NCBI GenBank assembly: GCA_005524015.1 | Contig: SULG01000005.1 | Location: 1 to 64,000 of the forward strand | DNA: 64,000 nucleotides | Source of the DNA: Candidatus Jettenia ecosi | Lineage (GTDB): Bacteria; Planctomycetota; Brocadiia; Brocadiales; Brocadiaceae | Reading direction: 5' to 3' | Shown here: positions 15,921 to 54,743 of the stretch, in pieces | Layout: the number at the start of each line of letters is the position of its first letter | Numbering within the stretch: position 1 is the first letter of the stretch | Position numbers and translations under genes: made by a program | The notes under the pieces: model-generated | Seen by the model: the letters and a program-made list of their open reading frames with translations, nothing else | Told to the model about the DNA's origin: nothing | The model's database searches: none

Positions 15921-16727
15921 TTAAGATTTTTTGTCTTTTACCTTTATCTTATTCCAGACAGCATCCATTTCCTCTAAGGTACATGTTTCAATATCTTTTC
16001 CCATAGAAGCAAGTTCTGCTTCAACTTTTTTAAAGCGATCAACAAATTTATAGATTGTCTTGTGGAGTACATTTTCCGTATCGAGCTTCAAAAAACGGGA
16101 GAGATTTACCATGGAAAACAGGAGGTCTCCCACCTCCTCTTCTATATGTTCCGGTTTTTTTTCACGGATTGCCTCTTTGACCTCCGCAAGTTCTTCATCC
16201 ACCTTGGCGATTACATCGTTGATATTTGTCCAATCAAAACCTACTTTTGCAACTTTCTTTTGTACCTTCTGAGCCTTTTGAAGCGCCGGGAGATATTTCG
16301 GCAAGCCGTCTACAACAGATTTTCTTTCTTCATATCCTTTCTCCTTTTTTTTGATCTCCTCCCATTGATGAATTACCTCTTCCGGAGTGGTTGCTGTGGC
16401 ATCTCCAAAGACGTGCGGATGGCGACGTGTCATCTTATCAAGACACAGTGTCATTACACCGCCTATATCAAACTGTCCTTTTTCTTTGGCAATTTGACAA
16501 TGGAAGATAATATGAAAAAAGAGATCAGCAAGTTCTTCCTTGAGTTTAGACGGGTCTCCAGAATCTATTGCATCTATTACCTCATATGCCTCTTCTATTA
16601 AATGTGGCTTTAGAGACATGTGGCTCTGTTCTTTATCCCATGGACATCCATCTTTGCTGCGTAATTTCTGCGTCAGCTCAATCAAATCTTGTAATAAGGA
16701 AATGGGTTTAACTTCAGGTGTGTTCAT
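15921..16727 (-). CDS. mazG: nucleoside triphosphate pyrophosphohydrolase MazG
   Basis: MazG hydrolyses (d)NTPs to monophosphates and pyrophosphate as house-cleaning. The 268-residue product has two MazG folds in tandem. The first has GCPWDKEQSH, EEAYEVIDAI and EELADLFFHI (EExxE...ExxD metal site). The second has VDEELAEVKEAI and EEEVGDLLFSMVNL. I use the ATG at 16727 (MNTPEVKPIS) because the 95 codons upstream are not MazG-like and overlap the divergent hemB promoter region. It ends with a Lys-rich KVKDKKS tail. Confidence 0.93.
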   Translation of the reverse strand: MNTPEVKPISLLQDLIELTQKLRSKDGCPWDKEQSHMSLKPHLIEEAYEVIDAIDSGDPSKLKEELADLFFHIIFHCQIAKEKGQFDIGGVMTLCLDKMTRRHPHVFGDATATTPEEVIHQWEEIKKKEKGYEERKSVVDGLPKYLPALQKAQKVQKKVAKVGFDWTNINDVIAKVDEELAEVKEAIREKKPEHIEEEVGDLLFSMVNLSRFLKLDTENVLHKTIYKFVDRFKKVEAELASMGKDIETCTLEEMDAVWNKIKVKDKKS

Positions 16728-16923
16728 TGATACTATACCTGTATATAAAATTTTTCGTAATAACTCTCTGTGGTGTACCTTCTCACGAATGTAATACCGG
16801 ATTTTAGCAATTATTTTTATTGAAGTCAAACATCCAGATGATAATATATTAACGTATTTTAAAACCTGTTCCTGATGAGGTTCGGGAACATGATTTTCCA
16901 AACATTTTATAAGAGAAAATATT

Positions 16924-17916
16924 ATGGGATTCCCAGAACGACGTTTACGCAGATTGCGCAGCAATGAAAATATAAGGCGGCTGGTACGAGAAACACAGAT
17001 ATCGATAGACAACTTGATTATGCCCCTTTTTGTCCGCCCCGGAAAAGGTATTAAACAGCCGATACCTTCTATGCCAGGAAATTTTCAGATGTCTGCTGAC
17101 AAGCTGGTTGAAGAGGTGAAAATTTTGGAGGGACTTGGCATTCCCGGCATTATCCTATTCGGGATCCCCGAGAAAAAAGATGAAATGGGTTCCGATGCCT
17201 ATGCAGATGAAGGTATTATTCAGAAAGCAATTATTGCTCTTAAGAGAGAAGTAAAAAATATCCTTGTGATTACCGACGTTTGCATGTGTGAATATACTAA
17301 TCACGGCCACTGTGGTTTCGTTAGAACGGATGACAGGACAGGTCATTTTGAAGTAGACAACGATATGACTCTGGAACTGCTGGTAAAAGAATCAGTTTCC
17401 CATGCGAAGGCAGGCGCAGATATTATAGCTCCGAGTGATATGATGGATGGCCGTGTAGGTGCGATTCGACAGGGACTCGACGGGAATGGTTTTGAGCACA
17501 TTCCCGTTATGGCATATTCTGCCAAATATGCATCAGGTTTCTACGGCCCCTTCCGGGAGGCCGCTGAGTCTACACCCGGATTTGGCGACCGCTCTTCATA
17601 TCAGATGGACCCTCACAACGCCGCTGAGGCGCTTCGTGAGGTGTCGCTGGATATAGAAGAGGGAGCCGATATTGTAATGGTAAAGCCGGCGTTGGCCTAT
17701 CTTGATATTATCCGTATAATAAAAGATAAATTCAATTATCCTGTTGCAGCTTACAATGTGAGCGGTGAATTTTCTGTTGTGAAGGCTGCAGCGGAGAAGG
17801 GCTGGATCGATGAAAAACGTGTAGCGTTGGAAATTTTGACAAGCATCAAACGCGCCGGCGCTGATATCATCTTAACGTACTGGGCAAAAGATGCTGCTCA
17901 ATGGTTGAGAAAATAA
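16924..17916 (+). CDS. hemB: delta-aminolevulinic acid dehydratase (porphobilinogen synthase)
   Basis: HemB condenses two 5-aminolevulinates to porphobilinogen in haem and corrinoid synthesis. The 330-residue protein shows the zinc site [14 protein letters not shown], the catalytic lysines in MAYSAKYAS and [11 protein letters not shown], and the C-terminal [14 protein letters not shown]. All three zinc cysteines are present, so it is the zinc-dependent type. Its 3' end overlaps the start of the GGDEF sensor gene by 16 bases. Supply of haem and B12 would serve the cytochromes and corrinoid proteins encoded nearby. Confidence 0.97.
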
Positions 17917-35642: not shown

Positions 35643-38600
35643 GTTTCAATTCCTTATAGGTTCAATGAAAGTAAGACTATCTTATAGGCTCTATACTGGT
35701 AGCAACGTTTCAATTCCTTATAGGTTCAATGAAAGATGAAGCGACAGGACAAGAAGTAGAAAGAGGACAGGTTTCAATTCCTTATAGGTTCAATGAAAGC
35801 ATGATGATGTTCGATACCTAAAGAGAGGAAAGGCGAGTTTCAATTCCTTATAGGTTCAATGAAAGACTGAGCTTTTGAATACTTGTTCCTATGGTTTTCC
35901 GTTTCAATTCCTTATAGGTTCAATGAAAGGATCCATTTAGCGGTTTCATTAATTCCATCGGTCAAGTTTCAATTCCTTATAGGTTCAATGAAAGTCGATC
36001 GGTAAACCTTGATGCTATCGATATTACCCGTTTCAATTCCTTATAGGTTCAATGAAAGGCTTAATAGAGCTCTCTGGACACTTACGGAAAAAAGTTTCAA
36101 TTCCTTATAGGTTCAATGAAAGAAGATATCACTTTATATTATTTCTCTCCAAAGTCGGTTTCAATTCCTTATAGGTTCAATGAAAGTTTATACCTATCGT
36201 AAAATGCTTTCCATTAAGAATGTTTCAATTCCTTATAGGTTCAATGAAAGTCAACGGGAATGGCTAGTATCCATCGTTGCAAATAGGTTTCAATTCCTTA
36301 TAGGTTCAATGAAAGAAGCCAGGTGGACGTTTAAAGATAGGCCAGTCTTCAGTTTCAATTCCTTATAGGTTCAATGAAAGGATGCACTTGGCTAACTCCA
36401 ACGCATCTTCTTTGCGTGTTTCAATTCCTTATAGGTTCAATGAAAGGAGAAGAGAAGCGCAGAAGAAGACTCCCGTACAATCTTGTTTCAATTCCTTATA
36501 GGTTCAATGAAAGGAGAATTATGCCGATTATTAACCGTGGCGAATCTCGGTTTCAATTCCTTATAGGTTCAATGAAAGATTAATTCAAGTAGCATCTTAA
36601 AGAGGAAAATAATAGTTTCAATTCCTTATAGGTTCAATGAAAGTGTACGAGGGGGAACAAAGAGTGCAGCTTTGATGGTTTCAATTCCTTATAGGTTCAA
36701 TGAAAGGAGGACAGATCTACCACACCTGCCGCCACCTGTTCGTTTCAATTCCTTATAGGTTCAATGAAAGAATGCTCAGCAATGGGCAATAGGCTTGATA
36801 GGCTAGTTTCAATTCCTTATAGGTTCAATGAAAGGCAAGGTCGTTAAGTATATCCTGATACTCAATATCAGTTTCAATTCCTTATAGGTTCAATGAAAGC
36901 CTTTTACATCAACCGATTCTTACCCCGTCCCCAGTCGTTTCAATTCCTTATAGGTTCAATGAAAGTATACTTCATACTTAATTCTCTGCATCTTTTATTA
37001 GTTTCAATTCCTTATAGGTTCAATGAAAGGAAAATCTGGCACAGACACCAAGCTTCGTTCGAGGTTTCAATTCCTTATAGGTTCAATGAAAGATAATAGG
37101 TTTATACCGAGCACCTTTTTTAATTTCCGTTTCAATTCCTTATAGGTTCAATGAAAGTCTAGAACAACGTTTTTCCTATGAGTAGCTTGACCAGGTTTCA
37201 ATTCCTTATAGGTTCAATGAAAGGGATGTAAGAATAAAAGACGGCTCTCAGATATTTAAGTTTCAATTCCTTATAGGTTCAATGAAAGATCTTGCATTGT
37301 CTTATTACTTCGTTGGTATCAAGAGTTTCAATTCCTTATAGGTTCAATGAAAGTCTGCGGGTGTACCGCAGAGACCTGGCTTATCTCGTTTCAATTCCTT
37401 ATAGGTTCAATGAAAGGTTCAGCCTGCTTACCTTCCGTTTGTTCTTTGGCCCGTTTCAATTCCTTATAGGTTCAATGAAAGCAAGAATATTAGGCAGAAG
37501 ATCAGTTGGTTTTGATCGTTTCAATTCCTTATAGGTTCAATGAAAGATTAAGGGATGTACGTCATTAACCACCTTACCTGAGTTTCAATTCCTTATAGGT
37601 TCAATGAAAGTGGAAAGAGTTTATGAAGGGAATCTGGAAAATTCAGTTTCAATTCCTTATAGGTTCAATGAAAGGTAAAATCCTTTTTATAGATATATCC
37701 CTGAACCCAGTTTCAATTCCTTATAGGTTCAATGAAAGTCCTTTTGATAGATGTGTCTTTAATTTTCCCTTCTTGTTTCAATTCCTTATAGGTTCAATGA
37801 AAGTAGTGATTGTCTTGTGAGAGAATGAATTACTCATTTGTTTCAATTCCTTATAGGTTCAATGAAAGAACCAGCTCTGAGTATTTTATCTCTGATATTT
37901 GTCAGTTTCAATTCCTTATAGGTTCAATGAAAGGCGGTCGTAATCGCCTCCCAGGGCACGTATCTTCGCAGTTTCAATTCCTTATAGGTTCAATGAAAGG
38001 TCCCTGAGTCATGATACTCTGGTTCATATAGATACGTTTCAATTCCTTATAGGTTCAATGAAAGGCTGATGGGACATGAGCAGTACATTGCCCGTCAGAG
38101 TTTCAATTCCTTATAGGTTCAATGAAAGCATGGAGAAGTTTTGCCCGTTCTGTGTTCTGCTCTCGTTTCAATTCCTTATAGGTTCAATGAAAGCTTGAAC
38201 GGGGTCAGCTGGTAGCAATAAAGGGAAAATCGTTTCAATTCCTTATAGGTTCAATGAAAGATGCAGCCGACAAGAACAATTACCGTATCCAGTGCAGTTT
38301 CAATTCCTTATAGGTTCAATGAAAGTCTTGTCCGTCCACAAAGCTGGCACTTCAAGGATTATGTTTCAATTCCTTATAGGTTCAATGAAAGTACGTTTAC
38401 CGGCATACGTGACGATTGTATGCAGATGTTTCAATTCCTTATAGGTTCAATGAAAGGAAATCATGGACATGATAAATAAAAACAGGAAGATTGTTTCAAT
38501 TCCTTATAGGTTCAATGAAAGCCCGCAAGCAAACGCTTTGTAAGGGTTTATTTCTGCGTTTCAATTCCTTATAGGTTCAATGAAAGAAAATAGAAACAAA

Positions 38601-41366
38601 AAAAGCTGGCTAATATTTCTATGTTTCAATTCCTTATAGGTTCAATGAAAGATACAACATTTTTTCCTGAATGCTTCCCTCAAACACGTTTCAATTCCTT
38701 ATAGGTTCAATGAAAGCAAGAAGAGGGAACAATAAGGTTTCAATTCCTTATAGGTTCAATGAAAGGAAAAAAGATCACGGAATTGCAGATGCAATCCTTA
38801 TGTTTCAATTCCTTATAGGTTCAATGAAAGCCGGACGACTACAATACCTTTGACAATCAGTATGCGTTTCAATTCCTTATAGGTTCAATGAAAGTTGGCA
38901 ACCCTTGGTCCTTCCTGGCAATATGTTTCAGTTTCAATTCCTTATAGGTTCAATGAAAGACCACTTCCGTACGCACCAAACTGTTCCAGATACGCCGTTT
39001 CAATTCCTTATAGGTTCAATGAAAGGTTATGATACGAAGGAAAAAGAAAGATGTTTTAAGTTTCAATTCCTTATAGGTTCAATGAAAGGGCTCGGGCAGC
39101 CAGAACCGTATCCAGTACTCCTTTGAGTTTCAATTCCTTATAGGTTCAATGAAAGATGTGCGCCACCATATGAGGAGGGCGATCTGACGAGTTTCAATTC
39201 CTTATAGGTTCAATGAAAGCGGTTACGCACTACCATACCGATCTTCACCTGGTAGGTTTCAATTCCTTATAGGTTCAATGAAAGCAAAAGGAGGGAGAAA
39301 TGATTGTTGGGATAGTTTTGTTTCAATTCCTTATAGGTTCAATGAAAGGAAAATTACATGCGCTTGATATGAACGTGGTACTCAGTTTCAATTCCTTATA
39401 GGTTCAATGAAAGCAGGCTATCCGGAACGTGAAGGATCAATTGAAAAAGTTTCAATTCCTTATAGGTTCAATGAAAGGAGGGGTGAAGTTAAAGAGAGCC
39501 CATCCACCGTTCTGTTTCAATTCCTTATAGGTTCAATGAAAGTATTCGCCATCTTCGCTGATCAATTCGCAGAAACGGGTTTCAATTCCTTATAGGTTCA
39601 ATGAAAGCCGCCTGCCGGACATAATCCATGCCGAAACAATCTACCGTTTCAATTCCTTATAGGTTCAATGAAAGTTGTGTATATGACCCCTTATGTCTTC
39701 TATTTCAACGTTTCAATTCCTTATAGGTTCAATGAAAGTTAACCAGGTAACATAACTTTGAATCATGCTTGTAAGTTTCAATTCCTTATAGGTTCAATGA
39801 AAGTATGTTGAAGGGATTGTTTTTGTAAATAGTGAGATGTTTCAATTCCTTATAGGTTCAATGAAAGTGGAGTTGATCCTCTCGGACAGTTTCCTCTTCC
39901 TTCAAGTTTCAATTCCTTATAGGTTCAATGAAAGGTTCCTTTTATTTGAGCATGAGAGTACCCCAAAAAGTTTCAATTCCTTATAGGTTCAATGAAAGCG
40001 TGTCGGAACAAGTATATTATCAGGATATGTCATGGTTTCAATTCCTTATAGGTTCAATGAAAGCTTTTTTAAAGCGGGTTAATAGCAATACCTGCGATGT
40101 TTCAATTCCTTATAGGTTCAATGAAAGTTTTTGCAAAAGGCTCTGATGTGTTTGCTATGATTAGTTTCAATTCCTTATAGGTTCAATGAAAGGAGCCAAA
40201 GACGATTATCCTTTCTGCAGATGCCGTGTTTCAATTCCTTATAGGTTCAATGAAAGATTGAATGCTTGCCTCATATATGGCCTTGATAATAGTTTCAATT
40301 CCTTATAGGTTCAATGAAAGGTGCTCTTATTTCCTGTCGTATCTGGGTTTCTCTTGCGTTTCAATTCCTTATAGGTTCAATGAAAGACTATAGCCAATAG
40401 ACCAAGCAGGTCATTAGCCTGTTTCAATTCCTTATAGGTTCAATGAAAGTCGAACGCAAATCCCTTGCAGATGCTTACGGAACCATGTTTCAATTCCTTA
40501 TAGGTTCAATGAAAGAGGAGGCAAAGAAGGATATGCAACGGTAGCAACACGTTTCAATTCCTTATAGGTTCAATGAAAGGTTAATGGCGATATAGGGTTT
40601 GTAAGAAATATTTCCAAGTTTCAATTCCTTATAGGTTCAATGAAAGAAGAACCAAGGATTTGAATCGAAATCCTCTGCCTTGATGTTTCAATTCCTTATA
40701 GGTTCAATGAAAGGTATTCTGAGATTGTTGAAATTGTCGAGGTTGATGTGTTTCAATTCCTTATAGGTTCAATGAAAGACTTACAAAAGATACCTATGTT
40801 GTGACAAACAACCCTGTTTCAATTCCTTATAGGTTCAATGAAAGGGTTGAAGTGGCGGCAAGGGAAATAGCTATAACGGGTTTCAATTCCTTATAGGTTC
40901 AATGAAAGGACAAAGCGAGCAAGGTATAACATTCGGCCAGACCACCGTTTCAATTCCTTATAGGTTCAATGAAAGACAATGGGCTCCAGCGTTTCAGTCG
41001 CTCTTGGATACAGTTTCAATTCCTTATAGGTTCAATGAAAGACGATTCAATCTTGCAGGCAATCTCAAAACTGAAAGAGTTTCAATTCCTTATAGGTTCA
41101 ATGAAAGTTTGGTCATTAACGATAAATTACTTTTTGCCACATGTTTCAATTCCTTATAGGTTCAATGAAAGGCAGCAAAAATAGAAGGACCAACAGGAAA
41201 CCTTAGTGGTTTCAATTCCTTATAGGTTCAATGAAAGCATAGATGGCGAGAGGGCAATACGATTCAATATTAGGTTTCAATTCCTTATAGGTTCAATGAA
41301 AGGGAGCCAGTGCGGTAACATGAGAGGATTTCCAAAAGTTTCAATTCCTTATAGGTTCAATGAAAG
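35643..41366 (-). CRISPR. type I-B CRISPR array, 89 repeats
   Basis: A 29-base repeat recurs every 63-67 bases. On the plus strand it starts GTTTCAATTCC and ends GTTCAATGAAAG. I counted 89 repeats by hand, all identical as far as I can see, and 88 spacers of 34-38 bases, except one of only 20 bases at 38717-38736. On the minus strand the repeat ends in ATTGAAAC, the usual 8-base 5' handle of type I-B crRNAs, so transcription most likely runs leftward. The newest spacers would then lie at the right end, next to cas2. Open frames that repeat IPYRFNE or FLIGSMK are repeat translations, not genes. Confidence 0.98.
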
Positions 41367-41691: not shown

Positions 41692-41958
41692 TTAAAGTAC
41701 ATTGTCCACAGATCTTTTTTCAGAACCAACAATCTCCTTGTCCAGCCATTTTTCATTTCTTGACTTAAATAAAATGAGCGAGTCCTCATCGTCCTCGTTC
41801 ATTATCTTTTTGGCTCTTACTTTCAACTCTTCCAACTTGCCTTCGGTAATCTCTCCTTCAAATACAGAATTTTGGATATGGTGAAGATAACTCCTGCACA
41901 GCTTCAACATCTTTCCACACCTCTTTTGATCTACATCGTAAACAGCGATCACGTACAT
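41692..41958 (-). CDS. cas2: CRISPR-associated endonuclease Cas2
   Basis: The 88-residue ferredoxin-fold protein starts MYVIAVYDVDQKRCGKML, with the conserved Asp after the first strand (VYDV), and continues YLHHIQNSVFEGEIT. It bridges two Cas1 dimers during spacer integration. It is the last gene of the cas operon, adjacent to the leader. Its length is normal. Confidence 0.96.
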   Translation of the reverse strand: MYVIAVYDVDQKRCGKMLKLCRSYLHHIQNSVFEGEITEGKLEELKVRAKKIMNEDDEDSLILFKSRNEKWLDKEIVGSEKRSVDNVL

Positions 41959-41978
41959 TGTATTAACCTCGTATTAAG

Positions 41979-42057
41979 AAGAAGTCAGAATCCAGAATTC
42001 AGAAGTCAAAAACCTATCTCATACTCCTGACTTCTGAATTCTGGATTCTGACTTCTT
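41979..42057. repeat. 30-bp perfect inverted repeat between cas1 and cas2
   Basis: The arm at 41979-42008 (centre CAGAATCCAGAATTCAGAAG) is perfectly complementary to 42028-42057, with a 19-base loop. RNA from the cas operon would form a long hairpin just before cas2. A diverged copy lies between cas4 and the SEC-C gene at 44115-44190. Confidence 0.9.
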
Positions 42058-42064
42058 AGGGAAC

Positions 42065-43057
42065 TCACCACCAGATTTTAAACCCCTCATACTCCTGCTC
42101 ACCAATAATATGTTTAACCAGCTTATAACATTCCAATCGTATTAAATACCGGTAAGAGACCTGTCTCTCAAGTTTCTTATGGGTTATCACGGTTTTCAGC
42201 CTTTCATCATACTCCTTGATTACGATCTTTCTTCCCTTCTCATTAAGGTAACAGAGATTTACTTCCGTCATAAAGTCCTTCCCGGTAATTTGCTGTCTAT
42301 TGAGTAGGGTAAATATCGTTCTGTCACTAAAAATAGGTTTAAATATTTCAGCCAAGTCCAAACTTAGCGAAAATCTGCGGTCTCCTGGCTCGTGAAGATA
42401 AGAAATAAGCGGACTCAACTGGGTATGGTATATTTCACCAAGGCATGTTGTATAGACCATTGAGTTCAGATATGAAATAAGCGCATTGATCATATTGTCG
42501 GGCGGCTGTTTCACCCTGCGTTCAAATTCTATTTCCTGGTCAATAATCATAGGCCATGCCTTATAATAGGTATTCCTGATATTCCCCTCAAGTCCCATCA
42601 ACTCTTCAACTGATTCTACTTTATCGATCTGCGCCTTGAATCCTTCAATCGTGTTAATATATTCGTCTAATCCCTTGCCCCTGTTACTGTAATATCTCAG
42701 GTTCTTCAGGATATTAAAACCGGCTGCATCTACAAATGCCCTTGCAAGCGCAATTCTCTTTTGACGGCTTGTATAATGATTCACCTGCTTTACCAGGAGG
42801 TGTCCCGAGTTTAAATATTCCCGGGGATAATAACTGCCCGAATAGAATCCATAATAGTTAAAGACATGTACCGGTATACCCTTCTGTGCCAGATAATTAA
42901 AGAGCTTTGTATTGAAGTCAATCTCCCCAAAGGCGTAAAGGGCTTCTGTATTCTCAATAGGAATAATGGACTTCGAACCATCTTCCTTTTCAAAGAAGAT
43001 CGTATTCTCCTGTCGTTTCAGGCGGCCGTTGTTAAAGATATAATAATTCTGTTTCAT
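42065..43057 (-). CDS. cas1: CRISPR-associated endonuclease Cas1 (type I-B)
   Basis: The 330-residue integrase has the beta-rich N-terminus (YYIFNNGRLKRQENTIFFEKEDG) and the catalytic block. The block has the Glu in LMGLEGNIRNTYY, the His in SYLHEPGDRRFSLSLDLAE and the acidic residue in the same segment. The motif pattern is that of I-B Cas1. It is intact, in line with an adaptation module still able to add spacers. It precedes cas2 and is separated from it by the 30-bp inverted repeat. Confidence 0.97.
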   Translation of the reverse strand: MKQNYYIFNNGRLKRQENTIFFEKEDGSKSIIPIENTEALYAFGEIDFNTKLFNYLAQKGIPVHVFNYYGFYSGSYYPREYLNSGHLLVKQVNHYTSRQKRIALARAFVDAAGFNILKNLRYYSNRGKGLDEYINTIEGFKAQIDKVESVEELMGLEGNIRNTYYKAWPMIIDQEIEFERRVKQPPDNMINALISYLNSMVYTTCLGEIYHTQLSPLISYLHEPGDRRFSLSLDLAEIFKPIFSDRTIFTLLNRQQITGKDFMTEVNLCYLNEKGRKIVIKEYDERLKTVITHKKLERQVSYRYLIRLECYKLVKHIIGEQEYEGFKIWW

Positions 43058-43063
43058 AATTAT

Positions 43064-43100
43064 TTAGCCACGAATGAACACGAATGGGCACGAATAAAAA
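43064..43100. repeat. 37-bp inverted repeat, left copy framing the GxxExxY gene
   Basis: The element begins TTAGCCACGAATGAACACG and ends GGGCACGAATAAAAA. It is identical, in opposite orientation, to 43536-43572. Partial copies lie at 41648-41671 and 45165-45195, so four copies punctuate the downstream half of the cas operon. Confidence 0.9.
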
Positions 43101-43168
43101 ATAAAGAGATTAATAACTTTTCTTTATTGATTACTATAGTATTTTATTGGTAATCATCCGTGGCAGCT

Positions 43169-43552
43169 TTAAAGAACCAATCTTTCGTACTCCAGTTTTT
43201 CTTTTCCAAAATTTAGAATAATTGCTAAAGGTAATCCAGTTGCTTTTAAATAATTAAGAGTTTGAGCCTTATGTGCATCTATTATCTTTTCTACAGATTT
43301 GAGTTCCAAAATAATCTTTTCTTCAACCAAAATATCGGCGTAATATTCTCCCACTTTTTCTCCCACAAAATATACAGTTACCGGACATTGTTGCGTAGCC
43401 GCGATTCTCTCATATTTAAATAATACTATCAATGCATTCTCATACACCTTTTCCAGGAAGCCATAACCCAATTTGCTATGCACTTGCATAGCAAGTCCAA
43501 TTATTTTGTAGGATAGATCTTTATAGAGAATATCTTTTTTATTCGTGCCCAT
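43169..43552 (-). CDS. GxxExxY family protein
   Basis: The 127-residue protein shows the family signature in GLAMQVHSKLGYGFLEKVYENAL (GxxExxY) and a nuclease-like core: YYADILVEEKIILELKSVEKI, with an Asp, Glu and ELK resembling the PD-(D/E)XK fold. QTLNYLKATG and ILNFGKEKLEY close it. The biological role of the family is unknown to me. The ATG and first codons (MGTNKK) lie inside the right-hand repeat copy, so the repeat supplies the translation start. It is cargo between cas4 and cas1. Confidence 0.88.
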   Translation of the reverse strand: MGTNKKDILYKDLSYKIIGLAMQVHSKLGYGFLEKVYENALIVLFKYERIAATQQCPVTVYFVGEKVGEYYADILVEEKIILELKSVEKIIDAHKAQTLNYLKATGLPLAIILNFGKEKLEYERLVL

Positions 43553-43572
43553 TCGTGTTCATTCGTGGCTAA
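43536..43572. repeat. 37-bp inverted repeat, right copy framing the GxxExxY gene
   Basis: This is the exact reverse complement of 43064-43100. It contains the GxxExxY start codon at 43550-43552 and lies between that gene and cas4. Confidence 0.9.
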
Positions 43573-43573
43573 C

Positions 43574-44083
43574 TCAAACCCAACAAATATCCCCATAACT
43601 ACAACTCTTACACATCCTCATCCGTTCTACTGCCGGCGGTAGTTCAGTGTTTATAATCTCCTGTATTTCCTTTAAAATCGATTGAATCCTCTCCTCATCC
43701 TCCGGTTCTAAGAATACATCCAGGGTCTTTCTCAGTTTCGGATAATTTAGCTTGCCGGTAATACCATCGGCGCCCTTTTGTTTTAGATACCAGATGTAAT
43801 ACTTCAATTGCCAGATATGAGGTTCTTCCACCTTATCAGATTTCTTCACCTCATGAATAACCCTGTCGTTCCCGATGAAATCGATCTTAATGGTATTATC
43901 AATATCGATCTCCTTCTTCTCCCGTTCATACGACGTCTCATGAATCAACTTTCCGAGGTAGACGGCATCGCTGTTCTGTTCCATCTGTATATCATGGGAA
44001 AAGTACCAGAGCTTTTTCTTGCAAAGAAAGAAGTAATTGATCTGGGTACCGGTGAAGCGGATATTATGCAGAGAGCTATTCAT
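43574..44083 (-). CDS. cas4: CRISPR-associated exonuclease Cas4
   Basis: The 169-residue RecB-like nuclease has the N-terminal Cys in NYFFLCKKKLWYF and the GKLIHE His motif. Its acidic residues are in IKIDFIGNDRVIHEVKKS, and a C-terminal iron-sulfur triad is in MRMCKSCSYGDICWV. It selects PAM-bearing prespacers and sets spacer orientation with Cas1-Cas2. All four cluster cysteines are present. It is separated from cas1 by the GxxExxY cassette. Confidence 0.95.
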   Translation of the reverse strand: MNSSLHNIRFTGTQINYFFLCKKKLWYFSHDIQMEQNSDAVYLGKLIHETSYEREKKEIDIDNTIKIDFIGNDRVIHEVKKSDKVEEPHIWQLKYYIWYLKQKGADGITGKLNYPKLRKTLDVFLEPEDEERIQSILKEIQEIINTELPPAVERMRMCKSCSYGDICWV

Positions 44084-45199: not shown

Positions 45200-45372
45200 A
45201 TAGTAATGATTCTCGATTTAATTTTGGTACATACATCATTCTTATCCCATTCATCCTATCTATCCCTGTTAATTTTATCCTCGTACCTGCAGGTAATCAT
45301 ATCCAATTTCCAAAGTTTTCATGTATTACCTTGCATATATTTGAAATCTTTAAAAAAGACCTTATTATCTAT

Positions 45373-47655
45373 TTACAAAATATTTTCTATTTGCCCTGTT
45401 AAGTCTAACCCTTTTTTATTAGAATAGCTACGATCTATAATCCATTCATCAATCTCCCTGTTATACCGAAGAACTCTTTTTTTTAATATAGCAAATTTCT
45501 GCGATAATCGAATTGGTACAAGAAGTTGACTTGCTTCTAAATATCTTTTTTCCTCTTTTAATTTTCTAAATTCTTCCTCTAGCTCATATGGCAATACCTC
45601 AATTTGGCCATCGGTACCTTCGATTACGTCTTCAATCCAATCTTTGTGGGTGCCAGCAATAATATTTTCATCAAATTTAGCTATCATTTGATTAGTAAGT
45701 CCTTTCTCATAATCATCCTTTGAATCTCTTTTATAACCATCACCGTATATTTTATTTACAATATCAGTTAGTTGTTGTTCAGTTAATAAACTAACTTGCC
45801 TTAATAGCCTTATTGTTTCTTGAGTAACCTCTTCATCATAGGGTAAGTATAGTGGATTTTCTCTCTTTTTGGCTGATGGTTCTTCAAATATAACAACTTG
45901 TGCTGGTTTATAACGAGATCCCTTACGATTAATTCTTCCAAGCCTTTGTCCTAAGGCATCAGCAGGTGCAGGTTCTATATATCCACAGTCATAATCTAAA
46001 TCTAAGGAAACTTCTACAGCCTGTGTTGCTACAAGAATTTTGGGAGGATTTTCACTTTGTATAACTGACTCAATTTCAAAACGATCTTCTGCGTTAAATC
46101 GTGCATGTAGCAACCTTGTATCGTTGAATTCTTTCCGCAGTATTTCAAAAACCTTCTGACTCGTTGCAACATGATTACACACTATTAAAGCTGTTTTGCC
46201 AGAATTTTTTATCTCAGTTATAATAGTTTCTATATTTAACAAGAGATTACCTGGTCTTATTTCAACATTATGCCTAATTTTATCCAGAACCTCTTTGTCA
46301 TCTTTGTATTCGGGAATAGGTGAAATGATATTCAAATCAGGGATACCAACTTCTTCTTTTAAAATATTTTCTAAAAACGAAGGTAAAGTAGCAGAAGCAA
46401 ATAATACCTTTGCTCCTATAGATTTTAACCATTTAATGGTAGCTAATGTAAGTCCTACAAGCAGGGGTTCAAATGCATGAATCTCATCAAATACAAAACA
46501 GGCATTCGGAAATTCTGCAAGCCCTAGTTCCCATCCTCTTCCTCGCAAGGCAACACGTAATATTTGATGAGGAGTTGTAACACGTATAGGATGATAAAGT
46601 TCTCTCGCCAAACCTGAAATGGTTTGTGCCATTTTTGCAGCATCTGTTGATGAATAATCATTTTCAAATAACCTAAAAAGATATGCTGCATTTTTGTGAT
46701 GCAAAACTCCCACAGTATGTTTACCATAAATTTTTTGCAATCTTTGATGCATAGCATTGATGCTTGCTGTATGCGGCAAGACATAAAATAAACGACCATT
46801 TTCGGCTTGGTTCTTTGCTGCCCATAACAGTATCGCTGCTGTCTTACCTGAACCTGTAGGTGCTTTTAAGATTGTATCCCCTTTTGTATCTGCACATCTT
46901 TGTTGAAAAGGTAATATATGCTGTCCTTTCAATTCGTGCTGATGAATTATTGCCTCATAGTCTTTCTGGATAGGAATTTTAGGTATATTAAATTGATGTG
47001 CTGATGCTATGTGATCGGCAGTTATTAGCAAACCACGTAAAAGGCTTGCATGGCGACGTTGGTCGATAGTCGTCTTATCCTTTTGCCCATTAGTTTGCCT
47101 TCTTAGCCAGTAATGTTTCAATACGCCGATATCTTTAAAGCAAAAGTCTAAATTATCAATATGCCATTTGTATGGCCCTTTATCATTTAGAGTATTTAAA
47201 AGATCAAAAAAATATTCTTTCTTATTTACTATTTCTGCAATCATTTCATCAAATACATTTGGTCTTATAAAAGGGAGTTCGTTATCAGGTAAACAGTCCT
47301 CAAATGTTGTTCCTTCGCTTTTCTGGGGAATACTTTTGTGATGTGTAACGATTGCCAATAATTCTTCCACTTTTAAATGCGGGGCAATCTTTGCTGCAAC
47401 GGCTGCGGACAAAATTTCATGTCTATGCCCCCACCGCGATTTGTTCCTCACCATTTCTTGGAAGCCAGTTGCAGCTTTTCCAATATCATGTAATAATCCT
47501 ATTTCAGAAACTGACATAGCTAATTTATTTCGTTCATCAAAAGGAAGAGGAAGTATATGACATATCAATTTGGCAACATCAGCAACATGCAAAGAATGCG
47601 ATATCAGCGTCTCTCCTGTATCTTTTGCCCAATAATTATGTAAATCGTTTTCTAT
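45373..47655 (-). CDS. cas3: CRISPR-associated nuclease-helicase Cas3 with AUA in place of the start codon
   Basis: Cas3 unwinds and degrades DNA marked by Cascade. From the first ordinary start (TTG, 47592) the frame has the HD motif LLHDIGKAATGFQ, Walker A APTGSGKTAAIL, DEIHAFEPLL, SATLP, VATQAVEVSLDLD and the arginine finger ALGQRLGRINRKG. However, the family N-terminus (HNYWAKDTGETLISHSL, with the first HD histidine) lies upstream in the same open frame. That frame begins two codons after the cas5 stop, at ATA GAA AAC (47653-47655), six bases after AGGG. I therefore extend the gene to the ATA, giving 760 residues. Either AUA is used or the original AUG has mutated. Confidence 0.9.
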   Translation of the reverse strand: MENDLHNYWAKDTGETLISHSLHVADVAKLICHILPLPFDERNKLAMSVSEIGLLHDIGKAATGFQEMVRNKSRWGHRHEILSAAVAAKIAPHLKVEELLAIVTHHKSIPQKSEGTTFEDCLPDNELPFIRPNVFDEMIAEIVNKKEYFFDLLNTLNDKGPYKWHIDNLDFCFKDIGVLKHYWLRRQTNGQKDKTTIDQRRHASLLRGLLITADHIASAHQFNIPKIPIQKDYEAIIHQHELKGQHILPFQQRCADTKGDTILKAPTGSGKTAAILLWAAKNQAENGRLFYVLPHTASINAMHQRLQKIYGKHTVGVLHHKNAAYLFRLFENDYSSTDAAKMAQTISGLARELYHPIRVTTPHQILRVALRGRGWELGLAEFPNACFVFDEIHAFEPLLVGLTLATIKWLKSIGAKVLFASATLPSFLENILKEEVGIPDLNIISPIPEYKDDKEVLDKIRHNVEIRPGNLLLNIETIITEIKNSGKTALIVCNHVATSQKVFEILRKEFNDTRLLHARFNAEDRFEIESVIQSENPPKILVATQAVEVSLDLDYDCGYIEPAPADALGQRLGRINRKGSRYKPAQVVIFEEPSAKKRENPLYLPYDEEVTQETIRLLRQVSLLTEQQLTDIVNKIYGDGYKRDSKDDYEKGLTNQMIAKFDENIIAGTHKDWIEDVIEGTDGQIEVLPYELEEEFRKLKEEKRYLEASQLLVPIRLSQKFAILKKRVLRYNREIDEWIIDRSYSNKKGLDLTGQIENIL

Positions 47656-47658
47656 TTT

Positions 47659-48375
47659 TTACCCTATAATGCTATGCATATAAATTACACAATCTTCACG
47701 ATTAGAGACCTTGAACAAACTGCTACGTTTTACAAGAGCAGGCTTACTTACAACCTGGTATCGATCAACACCTCCAACGTCTCTGAAATGACCAAGTTGG
47801 AAATTATTGAAGTAATTTGCAAGCGGAACAATAATACCACTTGTTCCCTCCTGTGGAAATGGCACAAGAGTATTTCGCACCATTCCTTGTTGTATTTCCT
47901 CAGCATCAACAATTTCGTATTGTTTACCGTTCGTAAGTGTTTCAATCCATGCAATATCCTGAGAACGCCCAAAGCATGGTATATTAAACGGTTCACTAAA
48001 GCGAGATTCAAAAAAATCTACATTCTCTAAATAAATATGTAGTTTCGGACGAATAAGAAATTCTCTTTGTGTTGGATTTGTCGTTCCTATATTTCGTTTG
48101 ATAATATTTTTTTCAGTATCAAGTGTATAGCTTTCTAGTTTTTCAAGATCAACGCCTTTTTTATCATACTTAAAAATAAAACCAATGCGTTTTACTTCTT
48201 CTGGTTCCAAATCTCTTCCAACCATATTTCCTAACATTCCCACAATTGTTGTGTATGGTGGAATATTCATCGTTGGCATTGATCCTTTGACTCCAGTATT
48301 AGAATAAAACAATGGCATCTTAAAAGTTGCAGTCCAGCCGCTAATACAAGCATAAATAAAATTATGCGTGGCCAT
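47659..48375 (-). CDS. cas5: type I-B Cascade subunit Cas5
   Basis: The 238-residue protein has the Cas5t N-terminus FIYACISGWTATFKMPLFY and the PPYTTIVGMLGNMVGRD block, the region that caps the crRNA 5' handle. The sequence is intact, one base downstream of cas7. Its stop TAA is in the same frame as the cas3 extension, so suppression of that stop would give a Cas5-Cas3 fusion. Confidence 0.93.
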   Translation of the reverse strand: MATHNFIYACISGWTATFKMPLFYSNTGVKGSMPTMNIPPYTTIVGMLGNMVGRDLEPEEVKRIGFIFKYDKKGVDLEKLESYTLDTEKNIIKRNIGTTNPTQREFLIRPKLHIYLENVDFFESRFSEPFNIPCFGRSQDIAWIETLTNGKQYEIVDAEEIQQGMVRNTLVPFPQEGTSGIIVPLANYFNNFQLGHFRDVGGVDRYQVVSKPALVKRSSLFKVSNREDCVIYMHSIIG

Positions 48376-48376
48376 C

Positions 48377-49855
48377 TTAATTCTCCAATTCGTTTACTTT
48401 AACAAGTAGAAGCTCAACGGCTTCAACTGGGCTAGTCAAACAAACTTCAGGCATATTGGATGTTTTAGTTGTAGTTGTTCCAGGTTTAACTTCTGGCTTT
48501 GTTGGTGTTGTATTAATTTTGTTACCAAATACATCATCCTGCCACTTTTGAGGATTTTTTATCCACTTTATAAGTTCGTTTTCACTTTCATTACTTAAAT
48601 AACCACTGCGAATACCGATATAGACAGGTGTGACAATTCGGTCAGCATAATCACAAATGGTTTGTTTTAAAGTATTAAGTTTGATACGCGTTCCACCCAT
48701 TACCTTGCTTTCAACTACTTCAAATATATCACCTGTTTTCTGCTCTCTCGGATTTGTCACCAATTCTTTCGCATCCTCAAAAAGATCGTTAAAGATCAAA
48801 TTTCCACAAGTTAATCCCGCGATAATCATAACCTTTGGCGAAACATCGGTCCCGAATTGTGCTTGCTTTGCACCCCCTCGTAAGACAGCAAGTGAACGAA
48901 GTATTTTTTCGGTTCTTTCAATCTTTTTGTTTTTATCTTTAATTTGATATATCGTTGCACTCTTATCATTTGTTAATACTCTCTCAACAACTTGTTTTTG
49001 TTCATATTCCTTTATCAGCCGATCTTCAAGTTCTTCTCTATCCCCTGCATTCCTAAATACTCCGATCCTGTGATATGCCAGTCCAAATATTCCTTGTAAA
49101 TGTGTATTATAAAAGCGCGTTGTATAGGGTAGTGGACTGGGAACTGCAAGAATAATTTTTCGGACAGCTAATTCGAGTTCTTTTTTTTCTTTTTCATCTG
49201 AAATTTCATTTGAAATTTCTCTTAATTTAGACTCCAACCTTTTTACTAAATCTTCACGGCTTATGTCTTGTTTTAATAATGACTTTGCTTCATTTATTTT
49301 GCCTCTACATTTTTCAGAAAGTTTACTTTTTTCTCCAGTAATATCATCCAGTATTTCTTGATACAAACTTATAGCAATGCTCTTTGGATAAACAAACCCC
49401 TTATCAATACCCTCCCAACCACTCTTTCTAACAGACATTAAAATTGATGACTGAAATGGTGAACTTCTTATTGTTGCCTTGATACCTTTAGAACCTTGCC
49501 CTTCCTTTGCGGCCATGTATCCGAAAATGTCATGCTCTGCGTACAAAACAGGGTCAATATTTAATCCTACTTTCTTCGTTGTATATTTTTCTTTGGATTC
49601 TGATTCTCCAGTATCAATTCCAGTGGTTTCAACTGGTGTCGTCGGATCACAAGGATATTCTTCTTTGTATGTTTCCCTGAGCCAGTGTCGCCATGCTTGC
49701 GCTGATACATATGGAATTTTGTTATTAAACTCCTGCATGGTTTTAGGAGTTGTGATATCATATCCCTCATGTTTTTCTGAAGTCGAGCCATTTAAAAATG
49801 CTCCTTCTGCCTTAATAAGAAATGTTCCAACAATATGTGTTAATTTTTTATCCAT
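48377..49855 (-). CDS. cas7: Cascade backbone Cas7 (Cst2/DevR family), unusually long
   Basis: Cas7 lines the crRNA in Cascade. The N-terminus HIVGTFLIKAEGAFLNGS and PYVSAQAWRHWLRET match Cst2/DevR. At 492 residues it is much longer than the 300-350 I expect. Extra charged helical stretches lie at about 165-235 (EKSKLSEKCRGKINEAKSLL to EISDEKEKKELE) and about 290-325. These may be inserted coiled coils like the one at the cas8 split. Conserved late blocks include AVLRGGAKQAQFGTDVSPK and RIVTPVYIGI. Confidence 0.9.
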   Translation of the reverse strand: MDKKLTHIVGTFLIKAEGAFLNGSTSEKHEGYDITTPKTMQEFNNKIPYVSAQAWRHWLRETYKEEYPCDPTTPVETTGIDTGESESKEKYTTKKVGLNIDPVLYAEHDIFGYMAAKEGQGSKGIKATIRSSPFQSSILMSVRKSGWEGIDKGFVYPKSIAISLYQEILDDITGEKSKLSEKCRGKINEAKSLLKQDISREDLVKRLESKLREISNEISDEKEKKELELAVRKIILAVPSPLPYTTRFYNTHLQGIFGLAYHRIGVFRNAGDREELEDRLIKEYEQKQVVERVLTNDKSATIYQIKDKNKKIERTEKILRSLAVLRGGAKQAQFGTDVSPKVMIIAGLTCGNLIFNDLFEDAKELVTNPREQKTGDIFEVVESKVMGGTRIKLNTLKQTICDYADRIVTPVYIGIRSGYLSNESENELIKWIKNPQKWQDDVFGNKINTTPTKPEVKPGTTTTKTSNMPEVCLTSPVEAVELLLVKVNELEN

Positions 49856-49867
49856 TGCCTTATCTCC

Positions 49868-51406
49868 TTATGTAATTTGACTACTTGTCTTATATTTTTC
49901 TCGATATAAATTAGTTAATTCAAGTCTCAATTGAAATAATACTTCCCAAACTTCATTATTACCATTTTCATCCCTGCAAAGGTCATCCCACTCTTCATTA
50001 CTGTAGCCATCTTTAATTTCGGCAAGCAATGCAAACCAATCTTCAATCGTGTGCGGTTTTACTTGGTCTTGCTTAAAAGCTGTTAAAATTCTTTTCTCAA
50101 ATCGCTCTTTCCCCTCTTTGCCAATGTAATAATCAAAGAAGTCATGGGCAAATGTTTTAATCTTAGGATATTTAGGATGAGCAACCATTGCAATATCACC
50201 TCCTATCATAGGGTGTTCTGCATCTTTTATATCATGATTTAAATAGAACCAGACAATTCTGGCACTAATTGAGTGTTTACTATCGGCTGGACGAAGTGGA
50301 TGTATATCACAAGGAAATAAAATAAGGTAGTCTTCTAAACTCAAGCTAACTTCTGACAACTTTATGATAATATTTTTAATTCGTCTGTAATCTTCAGAAG
50401 GATTTTCCTTTAATGTCTGCAAGTCCTTCTCTTTTATGATCTTTTTTGTCTCTCCAGCAATCCATTTTGCTACTGCAAGTGCTTCAGGTAAATATCCAAG
50501 GATTTTTACTGTATACAAATCGAAAAGTTCTATACTAGCTGGTGCTCGAATAAAACTTTTAGTTTTTTTTGATTCAACCTTATATGGGTAAAATGGGTGA
50601 TATTCTTTTTTTTCTTTAATACGCTGCAATAATTGAGATTCTTCCTTATTAAAGTTTTGTTCGTCTCTCAAATATCTTTCAATCTCGCCTTTCAGCTTAC
50701 CACGCCACGCTTCCCACAAAAATTGGATTGCATCGTTAGGAATCTCGATAATCTCAAGATACGGGTCTTGTCCTGTGTTTGAAAATCGCCAAAGATTAAG
50801 GCATATGTATTCTGGTAATTCTTCCAAGCTTTTTCGCTGTATTAAATCATTTATACGGCCTAGTAAAAGAAAGGTGATTGAGTTATAACCTCCGTCTTTT
50901 CCCCAAGTTTCCACTTTGTCTGTTAGTGCAGCTTTCTGCATCGTTTCTCTATAAACTTCCTCTACCATTGATTGAAACAAGGGAACGTCGTTGATAGCTA
51001 CATCATTTGTTTGAAAGCAAATTAACTTACCACCTAACATTGCCGTACCCATTGGCAATAACTGCACTGCCAACAAGCTTAATGCACTGAGCCTTAAAGA
51101 TCGGCTAGCGGAAGGGAGGGTTTGTACATCACTCATCGTTCCTGCTAAAGGGAACCACTCTTTTGCTATATTTTTACCGCTCATTTCCAGGAAGGATGTT
51201 GCTTTGAACTTGCCTGTTGCTTCACAAAATGCACCAGTTGAATATGTCCCATTCTTAATATCTTCAATCAATCCCTTAATGATAGTTACGTATTCATTTA
51301 ATCCCTTATCTTCTATTAGATTATCTGTTTTTTTGTCCAATCGTTTTTGTTGTTTCTCCAAATCTTTTTCTATATCTATATTTGTTTTTTCAATCTTTTT
51401 CTCCAA
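49868..51406 (-). CDS. cas8: Cas8b1/Cst1, C-terminal part of split gene
   Basis: Large Cascade subunit, responsible for PAM recognition and Cas3 recruitment. This 512-codon frame carries CEATGKFKATSFLEMSGKN, the LSLLAVQLLPMGTAMLGGK block and ICLNLWRFSNTGQDPYLEI, typical of Cst1. It starts with a coiled coil (KKIEKTNIDIEKDLEKQQKR). The first usable start is a TTG with no good ribosome site. The preceding frame ends 17 bases upstream in a different phase at AAAAAATAAAAAAT. One extra A, or a -1 shift, joins the two into about 648 residues. Confidence 0.88.
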   Translation of the reverse strand: MEKKIEKTNIDIEKDLEKQQKRLDKKTDNLIEDKGLNEYVTIIKGLIEDIKNGTYSTGAFCEATGKFKATSFLEMSGKNIAKEWFPLAGTMSDVQTLPSASRSLRLSALSLLAVQLLPMGTAMLGGKLICFQTNDVAINDVPLFQSMVEEVYRETMQKAALTDKVETWGKDGGYNSITFLLLGRINDLIQRKSLEELPEYICLNLWRFSNTGQDPYLEIIEIPNDAIQFLWEAWRGKLKGEIERYLRDEQNFNKEESQLLQRIKEKKEYHPFYPYKVESKKTKSFIRAPASIELFDLYTVKILGYLPEALAVAKWIAGETKKIIKEKDLQTLKENPSEDYRRIKNIIIKLSEVSLSLEDYLILFPCDIHPLRPADSKHSISARIVWFYLNHDIKDAEHPMIGGDIAMVAHPKYPKIKTFAHDFFDYYIGKEGKERFEKRILTAFKQDQVKPHTIEDWFALLAEIKDGYSNEEWDDLCRDENGNNEVWEVLFQLRLELTNLYREKYKTSSQIT

Positions 51407-51423
51407 TTTTTCAATTTTATTTT

Positions 51424-51813
51424 TTATTTTTTAATATCTTTTTCATTGCTCGTATTGACCAATGTCTCTTTTTCAGATTCAAGATCTTTTTCAGTTTCTG
51501 TGATCTGTGCCCTTTTTTGCTCGATCTTTTTTATTAGATCATCCAAGGTCTTTGTAGGATTAGTGCTTGTATTTGTTAATGGGCCATTGCTGCTAAATAT
51601 CATAGTATAGCAATTAAGTCTGCGATTAGTATTTGTCAACCAAGAGTACTCTTCGCCAGAACAATTCATTTTAGATTTGCAAACCTGTGCAATAATATCG
51701 GGAGTTAAATCACGAATTGTTTTTACCTGATATTTAAGTTCTTTAGCTCTCGCTATCATAACAGCAAGCCCCGTGTCCACCCACGGATTTCCTGTCCAAT
51801 TGAATAATGGCAT
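51424..51813 (-). CDS. cas8: Cas8b1/Cst1, N-terminal part of split gene
   Basis: This 129-residue frame begins MPLFNWTGNPWVDTGLAV, the conserved Cst1 start, with AAGGAG upstream. It ends in a charged coiled coil (DDLIKKIEQKRAQITETEKD and on) that continues without a break in the next frame. The zinc CXXC pairs seen in many Cst1 proteins are not evident; single cysteines occur in CKSKMNCSG. Together with 49868-51406 it forms one cas8. Confidence 0.88.
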   Translation of the reverse strand: MPLFNWTGNPWVDTGLAVMIARAKELKYQVKTIRDLTPDIIAQVCKSKMNCSGEEYSWLTNTNRRLNCYTMIFSSNGPLTNTSTNPTKTLDDLIKKIEQKRAQITETEKDLESEKETLVNTSNEKDIKK

Positions 51814-51825
51814 GGCTAACTCCTT

Positions 51826-51895
51826 ATAAAAGTGTTCAAGCAGTTTAGCCGTTCAAATCGTAACAACCGATTAAACTGTTCAAGTAGATGAATAA
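51826..51895. repeat. 9-nt 'GTTCAAGCA/GTTTAGCCG' repeat cluster
   Basis: GTTCAAGCAGTTTAGCCGTT and ACCGATTAAACTGTTCAAG are degenerate copies of the 9-base unit that is densest at 53175-53303. The cluster lies directly upstream of the cas8 start. Confidence 0.7.
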
Positions 51896-51956
51896 TGACA
51901 TAATGCCCCCTAATTTGAATTCCCTTATAAAAACCCCGAGGAAATTTTGATTGCTG

Positions 51957-53809: not shown

Positions 53810-53880
53810 CAAACTGATTAAACCGTTAAAACAATTCAAACCTCGTTTAAACAGATCAAGCAGTTTAAGCCGTTCAAGTG
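53810..53880. repeat. 9-nt repeat cluster at the cas6 3' end
   Basis: Units AAACCGTTAAAACAATTC, CAGATCAAGCAGTTTAAG and CCGTTCAAGTGG fill the gap between cas6 and the S23-like gene. The last unit runs into the final cas6 codons. Confidence 0.75.
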
Positions 53881-54743
53881 GTTTGAACGGCTTCTACATA
53901 TCCACATCCCATACTATTATTTTGCCCAAAGCCACATTCCAGGCCGATCCTGATTAATGCTTTATGGCCGGTAACAATAAAGGGCTGCAAGGTGCCTTTT
54001 ATATTGATGGGTCTCACACTGCCGTCTAATCCGGTACTAAAAACAGTAAACTGTTTTATTGGTTTTCCAGCAATGGGATAGAAGGCAAACTTTAGGTGCT
54101 CGCCGTCGCTGCTAAAGGGTTTACCATAAAGCGTTTCGTATTTGTGTATGAGATTTTGTCTCAAAAATTCCTCGTAACCTTCATCTCCAGGATACAGAAA
54201 GACATCCTGTTGGCCTTGCGGCATAGGTTTTTTGATGAAAATAGGGGATTCCAAAGGACAGAGGTTTAAGCTGTTTAAACCGTTTAAATCGTTTAAGTGG
54301 TTTAGAGTATCCGGCAGTGTTTCTACCTGATAAACGTTGAACGTCTGTCTGCCAAGCCTCACCGCCTGCCCTTCAGTAAATATACCGTCTACCAGGTGTT
54401 GAATAAATAGATCGACGGGTGATGCTATTTGAAAGGAAAAAGTGAAATGATTGGATGGAGAAGCTTTAAATGAGAAACCACCATTTGAGTTATTGAAATT
54501 GTTTGCATGGTTTGCGTTGTCTGAACGGATAATCTTGATTGGACCATGGAATAGTATCCCCGAGAAGACAAAGAACTTGAACCTCTTGTCCTTTTTGTAA
54601 ACAAAGCCTTGTTCATGAAGCCATCGGGAATAGTCGGGGTTTGATGTGAAGAGAAATCCGTAGATTAACGCCTGTATCTGATGTTGATAGTTGAAGTCGA
54701 TAATGGCTGACCTATCTGCTGAAAGCGTTATCTTTATTCTCAT
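53874..54743 (-). CDS. cas6: CRISPR repeat endoribonuclease Cas6
   Basis: Cas6 cuts pre-crRNA within each repeat. The protein starts MRIKITLSADRSAIIDFNYQ, has a likely active-site His in the N-terminal third, and ends with the glycine-rich loop ECGFGQNNSMGCGYVEAV. At 289 residues it is longer than the usual 240-260. The excess sits in two low-complexity Asn-rich stretches: NANHANNFNNSNGG (about residue 80) and LNHLNDLNGLNSLNL (about residue 150). The second is coded by the 9-nt repeat read in frame. It heads the cas operon behind its own promoter. Confidence 0.92.
   Translation of the reverse strand: MRIKITLSADRSAIIDFNYQHQIQALIYGFLFTSNPDYSRWLHEQGFVYKKDKRFKFFVFSGILFHGPIKIIRSDNANHANNFNNSNGGFSFKASPSNHFTFSFQIASPVDLFIQHLVDGIFTEGQAVRLGRQTFNVYQVETLPDTLNHLNDLNGLNSLNLCPLESPIFIKKPMPQGQQDVFLYPGDEGYEEFLRQNLIHKYETLYGKPFSSDGEHLKFAFYPIAGKPIKQFTVFSTGLDGSVRPINIKGTLQPFIVTGHKALIRIGLECGFGQNNSMGCGYVEAVQTT

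Follow-up and report, generated by a model that had tools for sequence, protein, structure and literature searches.

A type I-B cas3 gene of Candidatus Jettenia ecosi carries ATA at the position of the ancestral start codon

The window, a stretch of 64,000 nucleotides of the Candidatus Jettenia ecosi genome assembly (223 contigs; 3,864,554 bases), encodes a type I-B CRISPR-Cas system in which cas8b, cas7, cas5 and cas3 form an effector block, accompanied by cas1, cas2, cas4 and cas6 and by a CRISPR array (Table 1). The cas3 product combines within one protein an HD domain with the H...HD motif and the motifs of an SF2 helicase, as is characteristic of type I-B Cas3, and H20, H56-D57, TGSGKT, DEIH and QRLGRINR could be distinguished in the alignment with its homologues (A1). 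Profile comparison matched it to PADLOC Cas3b (PDLC01761; 1.7e-183), TIGR01587 (5.8e-68) and TIGR01596 (cas3_HD; 5.6e-19), as well as the Pfam domains Cas3_HD, DEAD and Cas3-like_C_2, while the neighbours typical of such a gene (cas5b, cas7b, cas8b, cas6, cas4-1-2 and the CRISPR array) adjoin it. A canonical start codon 5' of the HD histidine, a usual but non-defining property of these genes, is lacking, and the assignment of cas3 thus rests on its domains and neighbours.

Table 1. Features of the type I-B CRISPR-Cas locus in the window
Feature	Position	Strand	Remarks
CRISPR array	35643..41366	.	89 identical repeats GTTTCAATTCCTTATAGGTTCAATGAAAG, 88 spacers
cas2, cas1, cas4	41692..44083	-	intact; unrelated 127-aa ORF between cas1 and cas4
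cas3, type I-B, HD nuclease and SF2 helicase	45373..47655	-	760 codons from ATA
TTG, earliest in-frame ATG/GTG/TTG of cas3	47590..47592	-	without Shine-Dalgarno sequence; would remove E15 and H20
CTG, codon 17, candidate alternative cas3 start	47605..47607	-	keeps H20 and first helix (17-33), loses E15
AGGAGAG ahead of CTG 47607	47611..47617	-	duplex -7.4 kcal/mol; partly forced by conserved G-E residues
ATA at ancestral cas3 ATG position	47653..47655	-	from sequence; column 1 of alignment A1
cas5 stop TAA	47661-47659	-	one codon ahead of ATA, same frame
AGGG, weak Shine-Dalgarno-like	47662..47665	-	6 nt ahead of ATA; duplex -3.9 kcal/mol with ACCUCCUUU
cas5b	47659..48375	-	intact; PADLOC Cas5b 5.3e-54; alignment A2
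cas7b	48377..49855	-	TIGR02585 1.6e-29
cas8b, downstream part	49868..51406	-	-1 frame relative to upstream part; PADLOC Cas8b 1.6e-15, profile 135-385; 512 codons
A6 run, putative -1 junction of the two cas8b frames	51427..51432	-
cas8b, upstream part	51424..51813	-	129 aa; PADLOC Cas8b 9.3e-9, profile 6-89; ends at TAA 51426-51424
cas6	53874..54743	-	intact; TIGR01877 1.3e-22

The window is collinear with a contig of a congeneric genome (G002:C4), with approximately 95 % DNA identity outside the cas genes, 93 % in cas1, 87.5 % in the stretch comprising cas4 and a SEC-C gene and 85 % in the cas6 stretch. The region spanning cas3-cas5-cas7-cas8b (45220-51910), by contrast, has no match in this contig. 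On these alignments, the effector block cas8b-cas7-cas5-cas3 is a unit exchanged between the congeners, with cas1, cas4, cas6 and the flanks remaining collinear, since the congener holds a different I-B effector block between the same flanks (L079; G002:C4:220001-240000), the cas3 of which starts with GTG over the cas5 end.

Immediately after the cas5 stop codon, and in the same frame, follow AAA (47658-47656), ATA (47655-47653) and GAA AAC GAT TTA CAT AAT TAT TGG GCA AAA, after which the frame contains no stop until TAA at 45373-45375 (minus strand). The original prediction had described this opening of the cas3 frame with AGGG upstream of the ATA, and had further placed the conserved Cas3 N-terminus and the first HD histidine ahead of the first ATG, GTG or TTG. 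Both descriptions were confirmed on the sequence, as the TTG codon (47592-47590) lies 3' of the codon for H20 (47598-47596), the histidine of SHS. An ATG had also been expected in the place of the ATA, and this was borne out by alignment with MAFFT of the window Cas3 and seven homologues drawn from whole-genome collections (A1; eight sequences; homologues 32-63 % identical), of which four (L032-L035) share 57-63 % identity with it and three (L003, L004 and L046) are more distant. The ATG of all seven homologues occupies the same column (column 1) as the window ATA and none begins at the internal TTG, while E15 and H20, both encoded 5' of the TTG, are invariant in 8/8 sequences, and W-A-K and G-E, likewise situated between ATA and TTG, are conserved in the homologues. 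The segment from ATA to TTG is thus part of Cas3. The gene therefore displays two properties of natural AUA-started genes, namely that the codons separating the ATA from the next canonical start are conserved and that orthologues have ATG where the ATA stands.

Among the thirty other HD-containing Cas3 genes in the loci fetched, a canonical start is located 5' of the first histidine in every case (30/30), leaving the window cas3 as the sole exception. Comparison of approximately 1.2 Mb of the window genome with 0.8 Mb of the congener G002 showed that the canonical start had been lost in none of 143 orthologous gene pairs, with two flagged cases proving to be start-picking artefacts when the alignments were inspected; a wider habit of AUA starts was thus not seen in these gene pairs. 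Closer Cas3 homologues were not found in 392 genomes of the phylum beyond G001 and G009, a search of 176 genomes of the order of L032 yielded one additional homologue (34 %), and copies of the cas locus were not found in viral contigs. The type I-B operons of L032-L035, from metagenome-assembled genomes (MAGs) labelled Nitrospirae, Wallbacteria, Deltaproteobacteria and unclassified bacterium, resemble that of the window in their cas7-cas5-cas3 gene order, in their Cas3 proteins (58-63 % identical) and in having the cas3 start at the cas5 end. They differ in that their cas3 starts with a canonical ATG outside the cas5 frame and, in the genome of L033, in an uninterrupted cas8b (L037). Start-stop coupling of cas5 and cas3 is likely to be the ancestral arrangement, because in L003 as well as L032-L035 the cas3 ATG lies against or across the end of cas5, its frame differing from that of cas5.

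The candidate start codons were compared by the energy of pairing of the preceding sequence with the 16S rRNA tail, the 16S locus showing CCTCCTTT near its end. The AGGG ahead of the ATA is weak (-3.9 kcal/mol), on a par with the site of cas4 (-3.8) and better than those of cas1 (-1.5) and cas6, while the sites of cas7 and cas8b reach -8.2 and -7.7 kcal/mol, respectively. The AGGAGAG ahead of the CTG at 47607 reaches -7.4 kcal/mol. The internal TTG at 47592 was rejected as the true start, given its value of +0.5 kcal/mol and the absence of a Shine-Dalgarno sequence; as E15 and H20 would be lost with it, it cannot give a normal enzyme.

The explanation considered best, with a probability of roughly 0.55, is that the ancestral ATG has mutated to ATA and that Cas3 is still made from a weakly started, hypomorphic gene. 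A single transition would have turned the original ATG into ATA with the frame and motifs otherwise intact, and ribosomes ending at the cas5 UAA, aided by the AGGG, would use initiator tRNA to start at the AUA, perhaps reaching between a few and 30 per cent of the AUG rate and possibly supplemented by initiation at the CUG 16 codons downstream. Cas3 would then be scarce and interference weak. The frame of 760 codons without a stop and the intact HD and helicase motifs speak for such a weak start and argue against a long silence of cas3; against it stand the weak Shine-Dalgarno sequence of the ATA and the better one of the CTG. The output of Cas3 is, judging from the sequence, probably reduced or nil. 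Low-level AUA initiation was one of three readings offered in the original prediction and has emerged as the best supported of these, given the ancestral start column, the AGGG 6 nt upstream, the AUA starts known elsewhere and an ATT start of infC in the same assembly. The accompanying statement that each of the three would throttle Cas3 is fair as an inference.

Natural AUA starts have been described in other bacteria. For example, infC, ccpN and citZ of Staphylococcus aureus start at AUA, with AUA and AUU starts attaining approximately 10 % of the activity of AUG, and the ccpN AUA up to 30 % in rich medium (PMC13009471). These resemble cas3 in the use of AUA as start, there with an efficiency between roughly one tenth and one third that of AUG, but the ccpN and infC starts are conserved, regulatory and preceded by a strong Shine-Dalgarno sequence, whereas the homologues of cas3 have ATG and its Shine-Dalgarno sequence is weak. 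In Listeria monocytogenes, a natural ATG-to-ATA change in rsbW reduces expression without abolishing it (PMC13068326). The rsbW gene is a downstream operon gene that overlaps the end of its neighbour and was changed from ATG to ATA by a point mutation, as is proposed for the start of cas3; it differs in that expression was measured and ATG strains are available for comparison, whereas cas3 is known from the sequence of one genome. A literature search for non-canonical cas3 starts gave nothing relevant. The infC gene of this assembly (L168; G000:C62:14704-15192) apparently starts at ATT behind GGAGGAG, with no ATG, GTG or TTG in place. With infC apparently beginning at ATT, AUN initiation appears to be used in this organism, and infC would serve as the positive control. 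It shares with cas3 a putative AUN start outside ATG, GTG and TTG, of the E. coli type autoregulated by IF3, but is an old and widespread start with a strong Shine-Dalgarno sequence, unlike the ATA of cas3. Together with the break in cas8b, the cas3 ATA looks more like the mark of a fading immune system than a new regulatory trick.

Errors of 454 sequencing mainly affect the lengths of homopolymers. The start base is read from the single genome of the species, a 454 assembly of a mixed culture, and it is conceivable, if unlikely, that the ATA is a consensus substitution error or reflects a strain mixture in the enrichment, with ATG in the dominant cells. The MAG of strain J2 was assembled with Newbler from Roche 454 reads alone (53x) of a bioreactor metagenome (PMC6828613), which leaves room for such an artefact, but the loss of a start codon was absent from the 143 control gene pairs. 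A homopolymer error behind the ATA was rejected, as alteration of the G3, A6, A4 or T3 runs near the cas3 start places no ATG, GTG or TTG in frame, and the sole nearby ATG lies in the cas5 frame ahead of the blocking TAA; the ATA is thus real, a rare substitution error or the product of strain mixture. In coding alignments against the congener, A/T runs of seven and eight were one shorter in the window assembly in 1/67 and 2/22 cases, respectively, and homopolymer undercalls may thus occur in it, but rarely.

A start of Cas3 at the CTG codon behind the strong AGGAGAG would yield a protein 16 residues shorter that retains both the first HD histidine and the first helix in full. The pairing energy of this site lies within the range of those of cas7 and cas8b, the gap from GGAG to CTG is 5 nt, and the first helix in the AlphaFold2 model of Cas3 (residues 17-33; mean pLDDT 78) is kept. 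Such a start would, however, drop the conserved W-A-K and G-E, including the invariant E15, CTG itself is a weak start codon, and the Shine-Dalgarno-like string is the product of the conserved Gly-Glu codons, with sites of -6 or better found at approximately 5.5 % of the codon positions inside cas3. The string may therefore be accidental, though ribosomes would not discriminate. As the sole start of Cas3 the CTG is doubtful, while it is a possible rival or back-up start, one that, like the cas8b lesion, did not feature in the original prediction for cas3. The predicted N-terminal peptide of a CTG-started Cas3 is MISHSLHVADVAK preceded by Met.

Complete loss of Cas3, with interference dead and cas3 and cas8b being young pseudogenes beside a working adaptation module, is also improbable. 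It would account for two separate lesions in the effector block, the start of cas3 and a frameshift in cas8b, in a locus where the reading frames of cas1, cas2, cas4, cas6, cas5 and cas7 are all intact and where the effector genes form an exchangeable module. The putative junction of the two cas8b frames lies within a Lys/Glu-rich, coiled-coil-like linker, and the homologue in L037 is uninterrupted (696 codons) and has a similar linker. However, the break may stem from undercalling of an A7 run by 454 sequencing, seven A/T having been shortened to six in one of the control runs above, or be a genuine frameshift; if it is genuine, damage has affected two of the effector genes and spared those for adaptation. 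Furthermore, the 760-codon frame of cas3 is otherwise perfect, and AUA starts were not null where they have been measured (PMC13009471, PMC13068326). Self-targeting spacers, considered as a mark of dead interference, were rejected as such, as none was found in the approximately 1.6 Mb scanned of the 3.86 Mb genome (best matches 15-23 nt) and there is thus no sign there of tolerated self-targeting; among phage records, no spacer targets were found. Silencing of interference by a start-codon mutation, a further reading of the original prediction, is compatible with the data and strengthened by the cas8b lesion, but decay towards a hypomorph is preferred over a plain null.

It is quite improbable that the AUA is a selected throttle, sensitive to IF3 and coupled to cas5 termination, which would limit the amount of Cas3, with slippage on the A6 run perhaps doing likewise for Cas8b, such that adaptation continues while interference is low. 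Decay is favoured over an evolved throttle because cas8b is frameshifted and all homologues keep ATG, and the interference module is probably hypomorphic and fading rather than under evolved control. UAA is the least leaky stop codon. Read-through of the cas5 stop to a Cas5-Cas3 fusion, the remaining reading of the original prediction, would draw on the shared frame and the single codon between stop and ATA but is highly improbable, as no Cas3 homologue is fused, no suppressor tRNA was found in the 1.6 Mb scanned, and cas3 is out of the cas5 frame in L003 and L032-L035, so that no fusion is ancestral.

If the ATA is real, it has consequences for annotation, as automatic pipelines would likely misplace the Cas3 start or call the protein truncated, and any verdict on whether the system is active or dead would be reached on a false basis. 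The gene would further constitute a natural case of the dosage of immunity being altered by one base of a start codon, in a CRISPR locus where the adaptation genes and the 88-spacer array persist next to an exchanged effector block that now bears two soft lesions.

Several minor observations were made in the course of these comparisons. The Cas8b of a MAG labelled Wallbacteria (L037:895-2979) has a long Lys/Glu-rich, coiled-coil-like insert after its N-terminal part, as in the window, while the Cas8b homologues in L038-L040 could not accommodate an insert of this length. In the -1 frame of cas8b, an ATA overlaps the upstream stop (ATAA), probably by chance in A-rich DNA. The apparent ATT start of infC (L168) would be an instance, in a planctomycete of the anammox group, of the classical AUU start under IF3 control. 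Outside the CRISPR-Cas locus, a gene of 427 aa in the congener is frameshifted in the window (794-2078) near position 1822, which is not at a long homopolymer, and the ORF at 15921-17012 is open in the window and frameshifted in the congener at the place matching 16904.
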